Positions 9,157 to 61,779 of a stretch of DNA of 64,000 bases are shown piece after piece (the first letter of the stretch is position 1; every line of letters starts with the position of its first letter). The position numbers and the translations under genes were made by a program. The notes below the pieces were generated by a model. The model saw nothing but the letters and a program-made list of their open reading frames with translations, ran no database searches and was not told where the DNA came from. The stretch covers positions 186,334-250,333 of the forward strand of contig NZ_WWNE01000005.1 of NCBI RefSeq assembly GCF_009909615.1. The letters are read 5' to 3'. Source of the DNA: Acidiluteibacter ferrifornacis. Its GTDB lineage: Bacteria; Bacteroidota; Bacteroidia; Flavobacteriales_E; Vicingaceae.

Positions 9157-9638
9157 GTATTTTTTATTAGCCTATTTTTCTGTTCAGTCTTACACTCTAT
9201 AGGAGAATAAAAATACTTTAAATTTATATAAATAACTTAATTCCTCTATTTAAAGTAAGATACGATCCTCCGTCTATAATTTTTACTTTATTAATCCGTT
9301 TGAGAGGATTATCAATCTGCTATTTTATCTCTTTTTTATGAATTATAAAGATCATATGGTTTGTCAAAAAGAGGGTAGCTTGTCCATTAATCAGAACGTC
9401 AATAATAGGGCTGATTTTGAAGTTTGTCGACTTAAAAACTTGACTTTGTCATTTTTAAAGCCGAACTTCACTTTAAGTCTTTGGACGATATCACTCGTCA
9501 GAAAGTAAAACTTTCCACGGTAACACCGCAAGACTTAATTGAGTGATGACCTTCGTCATCTCTTTAAATCAGTCCTTTTATTGATCCCCTTCTCAAGCTA
9601 AAAATCTAGCAGATTTCTAACTCTAAAATTATCTATGG
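9157..9638. other. Geneless cassette-like segment
   Basis: About 480 bp bounded by complementary 8-mers (9146-9153 and 9639-9646) with no convincing gene on either strand. The longest plus-strand frame is about 56 codons, beginning near 9339. It has no recognisable motif and is not supported by a promoter or neighbour. The segment may be an empty or decayed cassette, or carry a small RNA. Confidence 0.4.
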
Positions 9639-32962: not shown

Positions 32963-35818
32963 ATGAGAACTAGACTGAAATTAATCTTATTACCTACTCT
33001 AATATTCTTTTCAACATGCATTTTTGCTCAAAAATACGAGATGTGGGGGATGACCTCAGAAGGAGGGGAGTTTGGAGCGGGTACCATATACAAAACAGAT
33101 TCTTTTGGAAATAATTTAACCAATGTTCATTCTTTTGAATTTAATAAAGGAGAAGAACCTTATTACTCTAAAATATGTGAAGCGACCAACGGTAAATTCT
33201 ATGGTTTGACTTCAGATGGAGGGCGGAGAGGTGATGGTGTATTGTTTGAATACAATGATTCCACAAATGAGTATAAAGCAATTTATGAATTTACTAGTTA
33301 TTTCTCTGGGAGTTTACCACTCGGTGGAATCATTCAGGCTTCAAATGGAAAGCTTTATGGGATGACATCAGAAGGTAAACTAAACAATTCAGGGGTTCTG
33401 TTCGAATATGATTTAGTTGCAAAATCTTATCAAATACTATTCGAATTTGGAACTGCGAATGGAGGTAGGCCAAATGGTACATTATTAGAGGCTTCAAATG
33501 GAAAGTTATATGGAGTTGTTCCTTTTGGTGGAACATTTGGGGGTGGAATTTTATTTGAGTACAACACTTTAAATAATACTTTCACAACAAAGGTTAATTT
33601 TAATAGGTTAACAATTGGTAGTAATCCACAAGGTAGTTTAATTCAAGCGACTAATGGCAAATTATATGGCGTAACATCTTTTTTAAGTGGATTCTCTAGA
33701 GTAGGAACTCTGTTTGAATACGATATTTTACTGGATACCATTATCAAGAAATCAGAATTCTCGGGACTCAAAGGTTCAAATCCTCTAGAAGGACCTATTG
33801 AAGCATCTAATGGAAAATTCTACGGAATGACCAATACAGGAGGGGTTAATAATTTTGGTGTGATATACGAATACGATTTGGTTACAGATACCTTAATAGT
33901 AAAAACACACTTTGATAGCCTAACAAGTGGTAAGCATCCCACTGGTAGTTTGGTTGAGATTTCAAACGGACTGTTTTATGGTGTAGCGCGGTATGGGGGA
34001 ATTAACAATGATGGAGTATTATTTGAATATAATAATCAGAACGATTCCTTATTGAAAAAGATTGATTTTGAATATACTCAGAATGGATATCAGCCAATGG
34101 GATCATTAACCTTAACTTCTTCAAATAAGTTGTTAGGGACTACTTTTTTAAGCGATACCGGAGCAGGGTTATTATATTCCTATGATTATATAGGGAATCA
34201 ATTGAATAATTTAAAATTCCTAAACCATTCAGCTATTGGAAGACACCCTGAAGGAAGTTTAACCTATGCCAATAATGGAATGTTGTATGGAACTTCTAGA
34301 GAGGGTGGAGCTAACTATTGGGGTTCTTTATTTGAGGTAAATCCCTTAACAGGAGAAGTAAAGACTAAAGTTAATTTTGATTTAGTTAATACAAATGGCT
34401 TTCCTCAAGATAATCTACTTTATACAAAAACTAATAGAATGTTTGGAGTAGCGACATATGGAGGTACTTACCGAAGCTCAATATTATATGAATATGATTT
34501 TTTATTAGATACCATTTCTATTGCACATGAGTTTATTTATGGTACGAGCTCTAAAAGTAGTTTAATTGAACATTCTAATGGGAAAATATATGGCTTATCC
34601 TATCAAGGATCCTTCAGCAATAGTTTAGTAATTTTTGAATTTGACTATAATTCTAAAATATTTCGATCATTGAGTCCAATACCCGGATCTTCTTCTTATG
34701 GAATGATAATCGAAGGACCAAATGGTATATTATACGGTGTAAGTACTTCGGGGGGTGTAAACAATAGTGGATATTTGTTTTCTTATGACATCACTACGAA
34801 TGCATTTAATTCGTTGTATGATTTTAATGGAGTTAGTGGTCAAGCTCCATTCAATGAGTTAACATTAGCAAGTAATGGTAAACTCTACGGAATGACTTTG
34901 TATGGTGGATCAAATGGCGAGGGCGTATTGTTTGAATATGATGTTACAACTTCAACTTACACTAAAAAGTTAGATTTTGTTGATACAATCAGTGGAGGTA
35001 ACCCTGAATGTCAATTAAGGGAACTGAATCACGGCAAACTTTATGGAGTTGTGCCTTATGGTGGTAAAAATTACGGGGGGGTATTGTTTGAGTATTCTTT
35101 TATAACAGACACTTTGATTAATAAATATGAATTTAGTGGAGGATTAAATGGTGCAGAGCCATATGGAAGCTTGATAAAAATACCAACTTGTATTATGCCA
35201 AAAGGAACTAGAACAATTACTGCATGTAAAAGTTATGTTTCACCAAGTGGTAATCATGTTTGGACCAGTTCAGGACTATACTCTGATACGCTTCAAATTT
35301 CAGGCTGTGATAGCGTGATCTCTGTTGATGTAACCATAAAAAAAGTAGATGTTTCTATAACTAATTTAAGTGGAAATACATTAGTAGCAGGAGCACTTAA
35401 TGTTTCATACCAATGGCTCGATTGTATTAATAATTATTCAATTATTACCAATGATACTAATCGAATATTCAGACCAGAAACAAGTGGCATTTATGCTGTT
35501 GAAATTACTTCAAATGGTTGTATAGATACTTCCGCTTGTTATCCAATAACAGTGGTAGGTATTTCTGAAAATCAACTCAGCAATAATTTCGCAGTATTTC
35601 CCAATCCGACCAATAGCAATGTCACACTATCTTTAGGTGGAATGTATGGCGCTTTCACCACTCAAGTATATAACGTACATGGAATGCTGATCAACGAAAG
35701 TACTCACCAATCTGCCAATCAAGTTGAGGTAGAGTTAGGAGAATCGGAAGGTATCTATTTCATTCACTTAATTACGAGCAATGGAGAAAAGGTGGTTCGG
35801 AAGGTAGTGAAGAACTAA
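32963..35818 (+). CDS. GloVer-repeat surface protein with T9SS type A sorting domain (copy 1)
   Basis: 951 residues. A signal peptide covers about 1-23. About a dozen repeats of roughly 55 residues follow, each with a core like ASNGKLYGMTSxGG then GVLFEYD, the GloVer (Gloeobacter/Verrucomicrobia) tandem-repeat family, probably blades of a beta-propeller. The PKGTRTITACKSYVSP linker, an Ig-like segment and a T9SS C-terminal domain starting VFPNPTN complete it. The protein should be exported by type IX secretion and attached to the cell surface or released. Role unknown, perhaps adhesion or binding. Confidence 0.88.
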   Translation: MRTRLKLILLPTLIFFSTCIFAQKYEMWGMTSEGGEFGAGTIYKTDSFGNNLTNVHSFEFNKGEEPYYSKICEATNGKFYGLTSDGGRRGDGVLFEYNDSTNEYKAIYEFTSYFSGSLPLGGIIQASNGKLYGMTSEGKLNNSGVLFEYDLVAKSYQILFEFGTANGGRPNGTLLEASNGKLYGVVPFGGTFGGGILFEYNTLNNTFTTKVNFNRLTIGSNPQGSLIQATNGKLYGVTSFLSGFSRVGTLFEYDILLDTIIKKSEFSGLKGSNPLEGPIEASNGKFYGMTNTGGVNNFGVIYEYDLVTDTLIVKTHFDSLTSGKHPTGSLVEISNGLFYGVARYGGINNDGVLFEYNNQNDSLLKKIDFEYTQNGYQPMGSLTLTSSNKLLGTTFLSDTGAGLLYSYDYIGNQLNNLKFLNHSAIGRHPEGSLTYANNGMLYGTSREGGANYWGSLFEVNPLTGEVKTKVNFDLVNTNGFPQDNLLYTKTNRMFGVATYGGTYRSSILYEYDFLLDTISIAHEFIYGTSSKSSLIEHSNGKIYGLSYQGSFSNSLVIFEFDYNSKIFRSLSPIPGSSSYGMIIEGPNGILYGVSTSGGVNNSGYLFSYDITTNAFNSLYDFNGVSGQAPFNELTLASNGKLYGMTLYGGSNGEGVLFEYDVTTSTYTKKLDFVDTISGGNPECQLRELNHGKLYGVVPYGGKNYGGVLFEYSFITDTLINKYEFSGGLNGAEPYGSLIKIPTCIMPKGTRTITACKSYVSPSGNHVWTSSGLYSDTLQISGCDSVISVDVTIKKVDVSITNLSGNTLVAGALNVSYQWLDCINNYSIITNDTNRIFRPETSGIYAVEITSNGCIDTSACYPITVVGISENQLSNNFAVFPNPTNSNVTLSLGGMYGAFTTQVYNVHGMLINESTHQSANQVEVELGESEGIYFIHLITSNGEKVVRKVVKN

Positions 35819-35878: not shown

Positions 35879-35996
35879 GCATAGAATTAAAAAAAAAGGG
35901 ACAAATGTTAGATGAATGATGCAACTGTTTAGTTAATTTAAACGTTTATAATTAAATCTATTAATGGAAGATTTCAAACCTAAACTTACCTTTATG

Positions 35997-38669
35997 ATGA
36001 AAAATAGACTAAAGCTACCTGTACTAATTCTCTTGTTACTTCTTTCAATTTTTACTTTCTCACAGAAACATGAAATGTGGGGTGTCACGACTCGTGGTGG
36101 ACTATCAGAAAGAGGAGTGATATTTAAGGTTGATTCTTTGGGGAATAACTTTAATATCGTTTACGACTTCCCCGCCATAAATGCTTCAGAGCCAGGTTAT
36201 GTAAATCTTTGTGAACATCCTAATGGTAAATTGTATGGTACAACAACTTCAACTTTTAGCAGTGCTAATGGAACAATTTTCGAATACGATCCTATTCTAA
36301 ACGAAATTACTGTGAAAATTAATTTCGATACTTTGTATCTAGGTAATCCTTTTGGCGGGTTAACATTAGCGCCAAATGGAAAGTTATATGGGAATACTAG
36401 TTCAGGAGGAATATATAATGGAGGTACTATCTATTCATTCGATCCTGTAACAAATAAATATAGTTTAATTCACCAATTTCAAGATACTGTAACAGGTAAA
36501 AGACCTTTGGGTGATTTGCTTTTAGCAGCAAATGGAAAAATGTATGGACTGACAAGTTTTTATGACGGATTAAAAAATGTAGAAGGAATATATGAATTAG
36601 ATATTATAACAAACACTGTAATTAGTGTTGCTGAATTTCCTAACTCTAGTGTTGGGGAATCCCCATCTGGTAAACTAATACAAGCTTCAAATGGTAAACT
36701 ATATGGGCTAACAAGTGCAGGTGGAGTGAATGGAAAGGGGGTTCTTTATGAGTATGATTTAGTTTTAGATACCTTAATAAATAAATATAGTTTTAATCAA
36801 TCTATAGGAGAGAATCCAGTTGGGTCCCTATTTGAAGCTGCTAACGGTAAGTTATATGGATTAACATATTGGGGTGGACTTAATTATAAAGGAACACTTT
36901 TTGAGTATGATATTTCTATCGATACTGTTATTAAGAAGGTTGATTTTGGTCGTGGATTTAATTTTAATTATTATCCAAGGGGAGTTTTTTTTGAAGATAC
37001 AATTGGAACACTTATGAATCACGACGGACGAAACATTGTAACTTATAATTATTTAACTGACACATTAATTTTACAAGCGGGTTTTATTTCAATAGGCGTT
37101 AGTGCAATTGCAGGAGATTTAATTAAAACATCATCTGGAAAGTACTATGGGTTGGCAGCTTCGATTAATAATGATAATCACGGTGGGGTTTATGAGTACA
37201 AAAAAGCCACAGATAGCTTAGTCATTAAAAATAGGTTTAATTACAACGAGTTGGGAGGATCTCCAGTTGGAAGTTTGTGTCAAGCAGACAATGGAATGCT
37301 TTATGGAGCTACAGTTATTGGCGGCGAATTCAATGCAGGAGTTATTTACGAGATTAATCCAAATAATAATTTTATCAGAAAGGTAGTTGATTTAAGTTTT
37401 GGAGTACAGTATCAATTGATCCAAGCCTCCAATAAAAAATTATACGGCGTAAGTGGGAATAGTATTTTTGAATTAGATTTGAGTACTGATAGCTTAACAA
37501 TAGTACATACTTTTAATACCTCAGGGATAAATTCTCCAATTGGTAGATTGTTGGAAGCAAGTAACGGAAAACTTTATGGGATTGGTCAAAAATATCTTTC
37601 TGGAGGACTAGGAGGTATTTTTGAATATGACATTCAGACTAATACTTTGGTAGAAAAACATTTATTCCTGAGCTCTTTCCCAGAAAGATACTCTGGAGGT
37701 TTAATAGAATCAAATAATAAACTGTATGGGGTGAATGCTTCAGGTGGATTTCACGGTAATGGTTCTATTTATGAGTTTGATTTATTGACAAATACTTTTT
37801 CAACTAAGTATAATTTTGTTGATACCATAGTAAACCCAAATGGAGAACTTTTGGAAACTTCCAATGGCGTCTTTGTGGGAACAACAAAGCGTGGAGGGGC
37901 AAACAGTGTTTTTGGTGTTAATGGTTCCGGAATTCTATATGAGTATGATAACAACAATAATAAATTTACAATTAAGAGTTTATTCATTAAGGATAGCACT
38001 GGATATTATGCCAATGAGGGTCTAATTAAAGGAGGAAATGGCAACTATTATGGGGTAACTAAATATGGCGGAAACAATAATAATGGAGTAATATTTGAAT
38101 ACAATCCTTCTACTAATATCAATTTACCTAAACATTCATTATCAATGTCAAGTACGGGAGGTATCCCATTTAGTTCTTTGACTAAGGTTTTAATTTGTCC
38201 TTCAGCGACAGTTACTTCTCTAGGAAGTAGTCTAAAAGCAGATGTCTCCAATGCCACCTACCAATGGTTAGATTGCAACAACAACTATGCAATCATCCCG
38301 AATGAAACAGGGCAATTGTTTACAGCAACAGCAATAGGAAACTATGCTGTTGAAATTACTTCAAATGGTTGTGTGGATACTTCCACCTGCTATCCAATTA
38401 CAGTAGTCGGCATTTCTGAAAACCAACTCAGCAATAATCTCGCAGTATTTCCGAATCCAACCAATAGTATTGTCACATTATCTTTAGGTGGGCTATATGG
38501 TGCTTTTACTACTCAAGTGTATAACGTACATGGAATGCTGATCAACGAAAGTACTCACCAATCTGCTACCCAAGTTGAGGTAGAGTTAGGAGAATCGGAA
38601 GGTATCTATTTCATTCATTTAATTACGAGCAATGGAGAAAAGGTGGTTAGAAAGGTAGTGAAGAACTAA
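35997..38669 (+). CDS. GloVer-repeat surface protein with T9SS type A sorting domain (copy 2)
   Basis: About 890 residues when started at MKNRLKLPV (35997); ATGs at 35994 and 35964 are possible, but the last would put charged residues before the signal peptide. The design is the same as copy 1: signal peptide, repeated ASNGKLYGLTSxGG blades, a short linker, an Ig-like stretch and a T9SS domain. The repeat part is well diverged from copy 1, but the last roughly 100 codons are almost identical, so that part has been homogenised. Expected at the cell surface. Confidence 0.87.
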   Translation: MKNRLKLPVLILLLLLSIFTFSQKHEMWGVTTRGGLSERGVIFKVDSLGNNFNIVYDFPAINASEPGYVNLCEHPNGKLYGTTTSTFSSANGTIFEYDPILNEITVKINFDTLYLGNPFGGLTLAPNGKLYGNTSSGGIYNGGTIYSFDPVTNKYSLIHQFQDTVTGKRPLGDLLLAANGKMYGLTSFYDGLKNVEGIYELDIITNTVISVAEFPNSSVGESPSGKLIQASNGKLYGLTSAGGVNGKGVLYEYDLVLDTLINKYSFNQSIGENPVGSLFEAANGKLYGLTYWGGLNYKGTLFEYDISIDTVIKKVDFGRGFNFNYYPRGVFFEDTIGTLMNHDGRNIVTYNYLTDTLILQAGFISIGVSAIAGDLIKTSSGKYYGLAASINNDNHGGVYEYKKATDSLVIKNRFNYNELGGSPVGSLCQADNGMLYGATVIGGEFNAGVIYEINPNNNFIRKVVDLSFGVQYQLIQASNKKLYGVSGNSIFELDLSTDSLTIVHTFNTSGINSPIGRLLEASNGKLYGIGQKYLSGGLGGIFEYDIQTNTLVEKHLFLSSFPERYSGGLIESNNKLYGVNASGGFHGNGSIYEFDLLTNTFSTKYNFVDTIVNPNGELLETSNGVFVGTTKRGGANSVFGVNGSGILYEYDNNNNKFTIKSLFIKDSTGYYANEGLIKGGNGNYYGVTKYGGNNNNGVIFEYNPSTNINLPKHSLSMSSTGGIPFSSLTKVLICPSATVTSLGSSLKADVSNATYQWLDCNNNYAIIPNETGQLFTATAIGNYAVEITSNGCVDTSTCYPITVVGISENQLSNNLAVFPNPTNSIVTLSLGGLYGAFTTQVYNVHGMLINESTHQSATQVEVELGESEGIYFIHLITSNGEKVVRKVVKN

Positions 38670-38694: not shown

Positions 38695-38726
38695 ACGACT
38701 CTTCCATTTTGGGAGGGTCTTTATTT
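38695..38726 (+). terminator. Terminator 3 (stem base degraded)
   Basis: It has the same hairpin as terminators 1 and 2, but the 3' arm ends GGGTCT and is followed by TTATTTT, so the lower stem is lost. Confidence 0.65.
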
Positions 38727-38855: not shown

Positions 38856-38863
38856 TACATTTG
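38856..38863 (+). promoter_or_regulatory. Minus-7 element TACATTTG of rpsA
   Basis: It matches TAnnTTTG, about 97 bp before the rpsA ATG, leaving a leader of about 90 nt. Confidence 0.5.
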
Positions 38864-38883
38864 CAGTCCAAAAAATCGACGTA

Positions 38884-38941
38884 TTGGTATAGTCGGTTAA
38901 CTATTAATTTCTTTCGTTTAAATACCAACAAGTAAACGAAA
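38884..38941 (+). promoter_or_regulatory. Pseudoknot-like leader of rpsA
   Basis: TTGGTAT (38884-38890) pairs with ATACCAA (38922-38928), and TTTCGTTTA (38912-38920) pairs with TAAACGAAA (38933-38941). The interleaved order makes an H-type pseudoknot of 7 + 9 perfect pairs. It lies 18 nt before the S1 start codon and is a plausible autoregulatory site. Confidence 0.6.
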
Positions 38942-38959
38942 TACAAGTAATTATTCAGA

Positions 38960-40927
38960 ATGTCTGAAAACAAAGAAAAGGATACGAACCCTGCAGAGGA
39001 GATCGTGAACAAAGCAAAAGAAGTAGCAACTAATGCTGTAGAAGCAGTTAAAGACGCAGCAGAGGCTGTAGTTGAAGCAGTTGAAGATGCAACTTCAGAA
39101 GAATCAAATGAGCCAAAAGCAGATAACAGCATTAATGCTTCTGTAGCGGCTGACTCTAAAGATTTTGATTGGGATTCTATCGGTAAATACGATGAATTGT
39201 ATTCAAAAGCTGAAAGAGAAAAAATGGAAGAAGTATATGGAGATACTTTAACTTCTATTAATGAGCAAGAAGTGTTAGATGGAATCATTGTTTCTAAAAA
39301 CACAAGAGAAGCTGTTGTAAACATCGGTTACAAGTCTGATGGTGTTATCCCAATGTCTGAATTGAGATATAAAGACGAAGTAAAAGTTGGAGATTCAGTT
39401 GAAGTATTTATTGAAAGCCAAGAAGATAAAAATGGTCAATTATTATTGTCTCACAAGAAAGCAAGAGCGCTTAGAGCATGGGATAGAGTAAATGATGCGT
39501 TGGAGTCTCAAGAAGTAATCAAAGGTTATGTGAAATGCAGAACTAAAGGTGGATTGATCGTTGATGTATTTGGTATTGAAGCATTCTTACCAGGTTCTCA
39601 AATTGATGTGAAGCCTATCCGTGATTACGATATGTACGTAGATAAAACGATGGAATTTAAAGTTGTGAAAATCAACAAAGAATTCAAAAACGTTGTAGTA
39701 TCTCACAAAGCACTAATTGAGGCTGAGCTTGAAGTTCAGAAGAAAGAGATTATTGCTCAATTAGAAAAAGGACAAGTATTAGAAGGTACTGTTAAGAACA
39801 TTACTTCTTATGGAGTATTTATTGATCTTGGTGGTGTTGATGGTTTAGTTCACATTACCGATCTTTCTTGGGGACGTGTTAATCACCCAGAAGAAATCGT
39901 TGAATTAGATCAAAAGGTTAATGTTGTTATCCTTGATTTTGATGATGACAAGAAGAGAATTGCTTTAGGTATGAAGCAATTAGAGAAGCATCCGTGGGAT
40001 GAGTTAGACGAGAAATTAACTGTAGGCGACAAAGTAAAAGGTAAAGTTGTTGTAGTTGCTGATTATGGTGCTTTCGTTGAAATTCAGCCTGGTGTTGAAG
40101 GTTTGATCCACGTATCTGAAATTACTTGGTCTAACCACTTGAAGCCTGCTCAAGAATTCTTTACTGTAGGTGATGAGGTTGAAGCTCAAATTTTAACCTT
40201 AGATAGAGAAGAAAGAAAGATGAGTTTAGGTGTTAAACAATTGACTCCTGATCCATGGGAAGGTATTGTTGAGAAATTTATCGTTGGTGATAAGCACAAA
40301 GGTAAAGTAACTAACATTTCTGACTTTGGAGTATTCGTTGAATTAGAAGAAGGTGTTGACGGTTTGGTTCACATTTCAGATCTTTCTTGGTCTAAGAAAA
40401 TCAACCATCCTAAAGAAGTTACCGCTGTTGGTGATGAATTAGAGGTAGTTATCTTAGAAGTTGATAGAGAAAATAGAAGATTAAGCCTAGGTCATAAACA
40501 ATTGGAAGAGAATCCATGGGAGACATTTGAAACCATTTTTGAAGTGGGTTCAATCCACCAAGGAACTATTACAGAAATCAATGCAAAAGGTGCAACAGTT
40601 GTTTTACCTTATGGAGTTGAAGCTTTAGCTACGAAGAAAAATATCGTAAAAGAAGATAATACTACTGCTGCTGTTGATGAAGTACTAGACTTTAAAATTG
40701 TAGACTTTAATAAAAATGCACGTAAAATTGCAGTGAGTCATACTCAAATTTTCAAGGATGCTGAGTTTGAAGAAGTAAAAGAGAAGAGAGCTTCTGCTAA
40801 AGCGGAGCATGCTCAAACTGCGAAGAAGATTAAGACGATGCAAGATTCACAAGAGAAAACAACTCTTGGTGATTTAGATGCTTTGTCTAAATTGAAATCA
40901 GAGATGGAAAAAGGAGAGAAGAAGTAA
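38960..40927 (+). CDS. rpsA: 30S ribosomal protein S1
   Basis: 655 residues. An Ala/Glu/Val-rich helical N-terminal extension (about 5-60) is followed by six S1 RNA-binding domains, the clearest starting near GQVLEGTVKNI, GDKVKGKVVV and GDKHKGKVTN with SYGVFIDLGG-type strands and KQLEKHPW-type linkers. S1 holds mRNA on the small subunit, which matters in a phylum with weak Shine-Dalgarno use. The extension is longer than in E. coli S1 (557 residues). It has a TAnnTTTG promoter, a structured leader and a strong terminator downstream, so it is monocistronic. Confidence 0.95.
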   Translation: MSENKEKDTNPAEEIVNKAKEVATNAVEAVKDAAEAVVEAVEDATSEESNEPKADNSINASVAADSKDFDWDSIGKYDELYSKAEREKMEEVYGDTLTSINEQEVLDGIIVSKNTREAVVNIGYKSDGVIPMSELRYKDEVKVGDSVEVFIESQEDKNGQLLLSHKKARALRAWDRVNDALESQEVIKGYVKCRTKGGLIVDVFGIEAFLPGSQIDVKPIRDYDMYVDKTMEFKVVKINKEFKNVVVSHKALIEAELEVQKKEIIAQLEKGQVLEGTVKNITSYGVFIDLGGVDGLVHITDLSWGRVNHPEEIVELDQKVNVVILDFDDDKKRIALGMKQLEKHPWDELDEKLTVGDKVKGKVVVVADYGAFVEIQPGVEGLIHVSEITWSNHLKPAQEFFTVGDEVEAQILTLDREERKMSLGVKQLTPDPWEGIVEKFIVGDKHKGKVTNISDFGVFVELEEGVDGLVHISDLSWSKKINHPKEVTAVGDELEVVILEVDRENRRLSLGHKQLEENPWETFETIFEVGSIHQGTITEINAKGATVVLPYGVEALATKKNIVKEDNTTAAVDEVLDFKIVDFNKNARKIAVSHTQIFKDAEFEEVKEKRASAKAEHAQTAKKIKTMQDSQEKTTLGDLDALSKLKSEMEKGEKK

Positions 40928-56300: not shown

Positions 56301-56308
56301 TACCTTTG
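56301..56308 (+). promoter_or_regulatory. Minus-7 element TACCTTTG of the B12 operon
   Basis: It matches TAnnTTTG and ends 5-10 nt before the first riboswitch stem. Confidence 0.55.
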
Positions 56309-56312
56309 CCGC

Positions 56313-56490
56313 GTTATTGGTTTTTGATCCCCATGGGGTCGGAATTAAAAGGGAATTCGGTGAGAATCCGAGACTGTTCCCGCAGCTGTAAGCTTCAATA
56401 ACTCTTTTACAACCCTTTGCCACTGTCCGGAATTTAGCGGATGGGAAGGCCGCTAAAAGAGGAAGTGAGTCAGAAGACCTGCCTATAACT
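56313..56490 (+). ncRNA. Cobalamin (vitamin B12) riboswitch
   Basis: The conserved core is visible: GGGAATTCGGTGAGAATCC, ACTGTTCCCGCAGCTGTAAG, CCACTGTCCGG, GGGAAGGCCGC and the B12-box-like AGTCAGAAGACCTGCC. P1 is GTTATTGG with CCTATAAC. It precedes a five-gene uptake-type operon and should switch it off when B12 is abundant. Confidence 0.92.
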
Positions 56491-56564
56491 TATAATGCTT
56501 TCGGGATAAAAGTGAAGTATAGGTTATTTGTCCGTCCATTGGATAATCTTTCTTTTCATTTTCC

Positions 56565-60748: not shown

Positions 60749-61779
60749 TGCGCTATAAATCAATACTACTTTGGCTGATAATAGTTCTACTGTTTTCTTG
60801 TAAGACCGAAGAGGATAAGAAAATAACTCCTTTGAGTAATGAAAGTGGAGTGGATGTAATTATTTTGAATGAAGGCAACTTTGGTTCAGGAAATGCGTCA
60901 ATTGATTGGTACAATAGCTCAAACAATAAACTTTACGACCACGTTTTTAAATCAAATAATCAGAACAGACCAATTGGTGATGTAGTTCAATCCATGCAAA
61001 TAATAGGAGATAAAGGATACATAGTTGTGAACAACTCTCAGAAAATTGAAGTGGTAAATTTGTCTGATTTTAAGTCGATTGGAAGTATCCAAGGATTAAC
61101 CTCTCCAAGGTATATTTTGCCAATTAATGAAAGTAAAGCATATGTTTCTGATTTATATGCGAATGCTATTTCTGTGATTAATCTTAAAGATCGAGTAGTA
61201 GAAAAAACAATCCCCACCAATGGTTGGACGGAACAAATGGTTAGAATAGAAGATTCTGCTTATGTGTGTGACTTGACCAATAATCAACTTCTCGTATTGA
61301 ATCTCCAAACTGATTCCATAATTAAAAGAACGCAGTTGATTCGTCAACCGGGCTCAATGGTTAAAGATAAAAACAATAATTTATGGGTGTTATGCAATGG
61401 AGGTTTTGATGAAATGATTCCTCGCTTATATCAAATAAATACTTCAGGTGATGTTATTCAAGTTGTTAATTTTGATAACATCAATCAATACCCTTCCAAC
61501 TTGTTAATTAACGAAGAGAAAGACCATCTTTTTTATTTTAATGACGGAATTTTTCGGATGTCTATCACTGATAAAAGTTTGCCCAGTCAACCTTTTATCG
61601 AAAAGAAAGGTCGTTTGTTTTATGGAATGGGATTTCACCCCTCGTCTAGTGAGTTGTATGTAGCTGATGCAATTGATTATCAACAGCGAGGAAAGGTGTA
61701 TAGATTTGATTTAGAAGGGAATGAAATTGCCACATTTCAAGCTGGAATAATACCAACAGGATTTATTTTTACACCATGA
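60745..61779 (+). CDS. Lipoprotein beta-propeller of BtuG type (YncE-like)
   Basis: 344 residues. Lipobox LLFSC with Cys near 19. Repeats such as INLKDRVVEKTIPT, LNLQTDSIIKRT and VNLSDFKSIGSI form a seven-bladed propeller. In Bacteroides, BtuG is a surface-exposed lipoprotein propeller that hands B12 to BtuB. The position directly after the BtuB-like gene, with ATGA overlap, makes this the closest counterpart. Surface location and ligand are inference. Confidence 0.8.
   Translation: MMRYKSILLWLIIVLLFSCKTEEDKKITPLSNESGVDVIILNEGNFGSGNASIDWYNSSNNKLYDHVFKSNNQNRPIGDVVQSMQIIGDKGYIVVNNSQKIEVVNLSDFKSIGSIQGLTSPRYILPINESKAYVSDLYANAISVINLKDRVVEKTIPTNGWTEQMVRIEDSAYVCDLTNNQLLVLNLQTDSIIKRTQLIRQPGSMVKDKNNNLWVLCNGGFDEMIPRLYQINTSGDVIQVVNFDNINQYPSNLLINEEKDHLFYFNDGIFRMSITDKSLPSQPFIEKKGRLFYGMGFHPSSSELYVADAIDYQQRGKVYRFDLEGNEIATFQAGIIPTGFIFTP

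Follow-up and report, generated by a model that had tools for sequence, protein, structure and literature searches.

The rpsA gene of Acidiluteibacter ferrifornacis, which codes for ribosomal protein bS1, is preceded by a leader that almost certainly folds into a real RNA structure of two hairpins with kissing loops. As judged from aligned relatives, all three helices of this fold are shown to be kept by compensatory change in an RNA of the plus strand. The element probably controls the initiation of rpsA translation, and we lean towards viewing it as a cis-acting ribosomal-protein leader through which rpsA would be repressed autogenously in response to bS1.

Fold and locus of the rpsA leader

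In the window (the whole stretch of 64,000 nucleotides that was analysed) the open reading frame at 38960-40927 on the plus strand codes for a bS1 protein of 655 residues. The earlier note was right in taking the gene behind the leader as a genuine rpsA: its product finds full-length matches in relatives and shares 94% identity with that of a congeneric genome (L033, deposited as Vicingaceae bacterium isolate M30B7). The same note had described two interleaved perfect helices at 38884-38941, and these are indeed Watson-Crick paired throughout, with 7 and 9 base pairs, respectively. However, a further hairpin had been missed. This hairpin, H1, is formed by AATCGAC at 38874-38880 (core CGAC at 38877-38880) and GTCGGTT at 38892-38898, making 7 base pairs including one G-U, and was first noticed when relatives were compared by eye and TTGGTAT was seen to lie within the loop of another hairpin. 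The second hairpin, H2, is formed by TTTCGTTTA at 38912-38920 and TAAACGAAA at 38933-38941, and is joined to H1 by an A/U-rich linker at 38899-38911 (AACTATTAATTTC; GTTTAACCnCTC-like in other families). The strand TTGGTAT (38884-38890), in the 11-nt loop of H1, pairs with ATACCAA (38922-38928) in the loop of H2. All of these features lie on the plus strand. Given that TTGGTAT lies in the H1 loop, what had been described as the first stem is a loop-loop helix between H1 and H2. The tertiary pairing proposed under the name of an H-type pseudoknot is thus borne out by covariation, whereas the bare H-type label does not hold, because H1 is a third covarying helix and encloses the TTGGTAT strand; two independent hairpins with their apical loops paired to each other constitute a kissing-loop arrangement.

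The nested minimum-free-energy fold computed with ViennaRNA already holds both H1 and H2, with pair probabilities of 0.84-1.0 and 0.58-1.0 respectively, and the kissing helix taken as a duplex is worth about -5.9 kcal/mol, or -7.4 kcal/mol with its flanks. Right behind H2 stands a conserved TACAA (38942-38946, plus strand), which is invariant in all 39 rows of our wider alignment, A7; it appears as GATACAA in many families and, together with the end of H2, as a conserved GA(A/G)ATACAA. Outside the helices the sequence is otherwise weakly conserved, and a protein-specific recognition site is therefore not pinned down.

Between H2 and the ATG at 38960 lie 18 nt, of which 38947-38959 (plus strand) form an A/U-rich spacer to the start codon; no Shine-Dalgarno (SD) sequence is present in 38942-38959. 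Across relatives, the spacing from the end of the model to the ATG is mostly 9-14 nt. There is no T run after H2 in the rpsA leader, for which reason we rejected H2 as an intrinsic terminator or attenuator. A perfect palindrome, TTCAGA-ATG-TCTGAA, at 38954-38968 places the rpsA start codon in its loop; this start-codon hairpin was likewise rejected as part of the element, since across relatives the upstream and downstream sequences pair no better than permuted ones (p 0.34 in the family and 0.10 in the class).

Upstream of the leader, an intrinsic terminator at 38697-38719 on the plus strand (GACTCTTCC-ATTTT-GGGAGGGTC followed by TTTATTTT; two overlapping matches against 0.1 expected in shuffles) closes the preceding gene and thereby sets rpsA off from the upstream transcript. 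It is followed by a Bacteroidota-type promoter -7 element, TACATTTG (TAnnTTTG), at 38856-38863 on the same strand. The motif TAnnTT[TC]G is found upstream of all 39 aligned leaders, with 0.03 expected per 60 nt, usually at 11-22 nt from the model start. Transcription would begin a few nucleotides past this element, at about 38868-38872, and the rpsA RNA would accordingly start shortly before H1. Promoter and upstream terminator together indicate that rpsA is transcribed as a unit of its own. Farther upstream the window contains two tandem paralogous repeat proteins of 901-951 residues (32963-35818 and 35964-38669), whose nearly identical C-terminal ends (...VRKVVKN) look like type IX secretion sorting domains.

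Compensatory change in relatives

When the single leader sequence (38865-38959, 95 nt) is shuffled 5000 times with its dinucleotides preserved, 11 of the shuffles contain interleaved Watson-Crick helices totalling at least 16 bp (p ~0.002). The same threshold is reached at two further sites in the window, at about 9461-9556 and 61421-61540, where the interleaved helices are probably due to chance. With two other sites as strong, the single sequence is suggestive rather than compelling, and relatives have to decide. A three-helix score compared with shuffles gave z ~2-3 in many relatives and ~1 in others, which is too weak per sequence, and covariation was used in its place.

Covariation among the rpsA leaders of relatives was the check that the earlier note had put forward, and the leaders pass it strongly by pairing, by double changes and by the ranking of all column pairs. 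As MAFFT alignments of all leaders place H1 and H2 inconsistently between clades (off by one and two columns, respectively), the statistics were taken from covariance-model alignments. A first model, R1, describes only H1 and H2 as they occur in 12 close leaders; with the kissing helix withheld in this way, it served to align 36 leaders (A5) blind to the kiss. In A5, 93.9% of the cells are standard pairs and 18 of the 22 pairs have changed on both sides (134 such cells), values matched by none of 500 shuffles; shifting the partners by 1-3 columns lowers pairing to 35-50%. H1 and H2, both of them covarying, are paired in 90% and 98% of cells. Since H1 and H2 guided the fitting of A5 and A7, the counts for these two helices lean to the structure; those of the kissing helix do not, and it is paired in 91.9% of cells (23-36% if shifted), with six of its seven pairs doubly changed.

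When all column pairs are ranked on a weighted G statistic after average-product correction (statistics that differ from those of R-scape), the same helices stand out. The top 10 of 2440 column pairs in A5 belong to H1 (five, at ranks 1-5), the kiss (three) and H2 (two), with kiss pairs at ranks 6, 8, 9 and 14; in the wider A7, which has 39 leaders and 31 effective sequences, the top 12 of 2376 belong to H1 (five), the kiss (three) and H2 (four). Parsimony on a bS1 protein tree yields 12 pair-keeping double changes in H1, six in the kiss and five in H2, and for the kiss the independent changes of this kind average 0.86 per pair, compared with 0.05 for a random column pair. Within the helix pairs of A7, G-U combinations outnumber A-C ones by 61 to 20, an excess that fits an RNA of the plus strand.

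Distribution among the Bacteroidia

A covariance model, R2, matches exactly one site in the genome of A. ferrifornacis, namely the rpsA leader (E 2.3e-9). It also matches 43 of 100 relatives, once each, and by coordinates always immediately upstream of rpsA; in three of them (G002, G011 and G045) rpsA was missed or cut at a contig end, yet is encoded right behind the match. Of the 46 genomes of the order, 41 contain the element according to the covariance model; no rpsA was detected in four of the others (G031, G040, G042 and G044), and in the fifth, G015 (L142), a variant of the element is seen by eye. A class-wide scan with a third model, R3, returned matches in 23 of 187 genomes at E up to 0.5, of which 20 lie upstream of rpsA. 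A further match, in G112, is a good leader followed by a truncated gene at the end of a contig; the matches in G188 and G192 (E ~0.2) fall inside unrelated coding sequences and were rejected as false. No copy was found before other ribosomal protein genes in the own-genome, relatives or order scans. The element is thus a covarying leader structure of a ribosomal protein gene that is restricted to rpsA, as expected of a ribosomal-protein leader.

Because the covariance model misses divergent versions, we additionally used H2 before TACAA as an anchor and sought the complement of the H2 loop upstream. Over 21 Bacteroidia families besides that of A. ferrifornacis, loop complementarity exceeds that of shuffles (Fisher p 5e-5). 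The kissing sequences are wholly rewritten, even within families: f41 displays GTAAAGC/GCTTTAC, TCAGGG/CCCTGA, GCAAGGT/ACCTTGT and CTAAGGC/GCCTTAG; f20 displays CCCTGAA/TTCAGGG, AATCTTG/CAAGATT and TACCTGA/TCAGGTG; and f54 displays CAGATTT/AAATCTG, GAGTTTCT/AGAAACTC and CAAGAAAC/GTTTCTTG. Family f54 is probably Flavobacteriaceae, since one of its loci is adjoined by a Flavo-1 element, which is known to be widespread in that family (PMC9723704). In f21 and f28, H2 and GATACAA are kept and no kiss is detectable by the H2-anchored test, suggesting that the kiss is not universally needed.

Other Bacteroidia have different rpsA leaders. A strong SD precedes rpsA in families f2, f17, f39, f40, f50, f58 and f59. 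At the level of individual loci, a strong SD, with AAAGGAG standing a few nucleotides before the ATG, is seen in L073-L112 (Sphingobacteriaceae and relatives), L151, L165, L219, L224, L226, L233, L249, L251, L252, L254, L260 and L262. Among 124 leaders outside the family of A. ferrifornacis, 14 have only the SD, 37 have only GATACAA and none has both (Fisher p 0.01, with relatedness ignored). In E. coli a stronger rpsA SD abolishes autoregulation (PMC10931766), and on this analogy one may speculate that the SD and the GATACAA leader are alternative regimes. The available text of another study reports SDs of rpsU and rpsR in Bacteroidia and makes no mention of rpsA (PMC9976891). The element was not seen in the rpsA leaders of Bacteroidales (ATAATGTCTAAC type) or in the SD-type leaders of Sphingobacteriaceae. 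Bacteroidales-type leaders (L052, L055, L058, L080, L132, L193, L205 and L210) display a common block, CATAATGTCTAAC, in several cases with ACTAATT..ATTAGT behind it, which might be a separate leader motif. The rpsA leaders of Prevotella and Muribaculaceae (L068, L069, L071 and L072) are a further leader type, with ATTAACCCG, a hairpin and, ahead of the ATG, (A)ACAAATTCGTTT in common.

Proposed function and relation to known systems

Control of initiation is the most likely role of the element because the fold is exclusive to rpsA, lies at the 5' terminus of the predicted transcript and about 18 nt before the AUG, and is accompanied by neither an SD nor a terminator. As to what is sensed, bS1 itself appears the better guess for the repressing ligand, given that a leader before a single ribosomal protein gene usually answers to the encoded protein (PMC7247131). 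Known behavior of S1 points the same way: in gammaproteobacteria the rpsA leader, which has no SD, is the site of repression by bS1 itself, a protein with pseudoknots as a high-affinity target (PMC10931766), the pseudoknot at the 5' end of the tisB mRNA binds S1 (PMC7708055), and the rpsO pseudoknot is melted by 30S-bound S1 (PMC3858243).

The promoter just upstream would start a leader of about 90 nt that folds into H1 and H2, separated by the A/U-rich linker and locked by a kissing helix of 6-8 bp. When bS1 is in excess over ribosomes, free bS1 would bind the compact fold and its flanking A/U-rich strands and keep the 30S subunit off the start site, so that translation of rpsA is autogenously repressed. 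Under a shortage of bS1, the bS1 bound to 30S subunits might instead melt the kiss and H2 and allow initiation. Each step of this cycle is inferred. It also has to be weighed that bS1 is an RNA chaperone with little sequence specificity, indeed the least sequence-specific of the ribosomal proteins even though that of E. coli recognises its own mRNA, so that a stabilised complex is a less natural target for it than for uS15 or uS4.

A role without feedback, in which the kissing complex acts as a constitutive standby site or enhancer and brings 30S-bound bS1 to an mRNA of high expression, would agree with the fact that SD and GATACAA leaders never coincide, as if either gave efficient initiation, and with the tisB 5' pseudoknot being an S1-dependent standby element (PMC7708055). 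Nevertheless, a general enhancer should also turn up at other highly expressed genes, and with one copy per genome, at rpsA only, we hold this role to be rather unlikely. It is improbable that a ligand other than bS1 is sensed, be it uS2, which is the docking partner of bS1 on the ribosome according to the available part of PMC3296737, a 30S assembly intermediate or a small molecule; the ligand of known leaders is mostly, though not always, the encoded protein, and the element is seen solely before rpsA, such restriction to one ribosomal protein gene being the criterion by which Eckert et al. point to the encoded protein as ligand (PMC7247131). The free change of the helix sequences, including those of the kiss, further disfavors a small molecule, being unlike the behavior of an aptamer core.

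The compact fold at the predicted 5' end of the transcript could also be thought to stabilise the mRNA against attack by a 5' exonuclease or an endonuclease. For this, however, a simple hairpin would do, and it would go unexplained why the site just ahead of the start codon is conserved and why the element is confined to rpsA, making such a role very improbable. Chance inverted repeats, or an operator acting at the DNA level with no RNA structure, might be entertained from the single window, in which the p-value is just ~0.002 and two other sites are as strong. Both are scarcely credible in the face of compensatory change in three helices, a G-U excess on the right strand and wholly different kissing sequences, and an operator would have conserved its sequence; as far as sequence can do so, covariation refutes them.

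Returning to the reading of the element as a bS1-responsive leader, we give even weight for and against a broader proposal, in which it represents an undescribed RNA family that responds to free bS1 by repressing rpsA translation over much of the class Bacteroidia, its place being taken in other lineages of the class by a strong SD or another leader. If true, S1 leaders would be described for the first time beyond the gammaproteobacteria, and S1 would for the first time be seen to read a tertiary contact between two loops of its own mRNA. Since Bacteroidia do without Shine-Dalgarno pairing, their mRNA recruitment may lean more on S1, whose level should then matter. A defined, covarying element of 75 nt with natural compensatory variants makes self-recognition by S1 directly testable, and for Flavobacterium johnsoniae, the model of this clade, purified ribosomes and bS1 are already at hand (PMC9976891).

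The RNA family is absent from annotation pipelines, and no Rfam 15 entry matches over the leader at gathering score in the window and the relatives tested. Flavo-1 (RF01705) was rejected as the identity of the leader, its match in L259, at coordinates 564-649, lying upstream of that leader. Elsewhere, at 56301-56500, the window holds a Cobalamin riboswitch (RF00174; 108.7 bits, E 2.7e-26). In the literature searchable without subscription we found no S1 leader of the kissing-loop kind, and nothing on how bS1 is controlled outside E. coli and other gammaproteobacteria; a review covering work to 2023 speaks of S1 autoregulation in no group other than gammaproteobacteria (PMC10931766). Structured 5' regions, 64 in number, are listed in a transcriptome study on flavobacteria, the available text of which does not name rpsA (PMC9723704).

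Among known systems, the gammaproteobacterial rpsA leader (E. coli and others; PMC10931766) resembles the element in that it belongs to the same gene, is structured, has A/U-rich strands by its hairpins and lacks a canonical SD, just as the leader of A. ferrifornacis has none and none of the 37 GATACAA leaders outside its family has a strong one. It differs in having its own specific fold, for which no kissing loop is described, and repression is ascribed to cooperative binding of bS1 on the A/U-rich strands (PMC10931766); the two are set apart by description of the folds, there being no sequence similarity and no such leader among the Rfam matches. The rpsO (uS15) leaders of E. coli and mycobacteria (PMC8470358; PMC3858243) likewise place a pseudoknot before the gene of a 30S protein, and for that of M. 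tuberculosis the repressed state, stabilised by uS15, has been proposed to be a "kissing loops" form (PMC8470358; PMC3858243). Yet they concern another gene, ligand and phylum, contain an SD, and their helices are not homologous. The tisB mRNA of E. coli (PMC7708055) shares a 5'-terminal pseudoknot that is bound by S1 and promotes 30S loading, but is a toxin gene, not rpsA, with a distant, sequestered ribosome-binding site, and its pseudoknot activates by standby. From the same or related lineages come the L13, S4, S15 and S16 leaders that Eckert et al. (2020) describe among 20 new ribosomal leaders, several of them from Bacteroidia or Flavobacteria (PMC7247131). These too are covarying elements, each belonging to a single ribosomal protein operon; however, none precedes rpsA, Table 1 of that work has no S1 leader, and its text contains neither the word "pseudoknot" nor the word "kissing". 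Set beside the known ribosomal protein leaders, the element is a new structural class.
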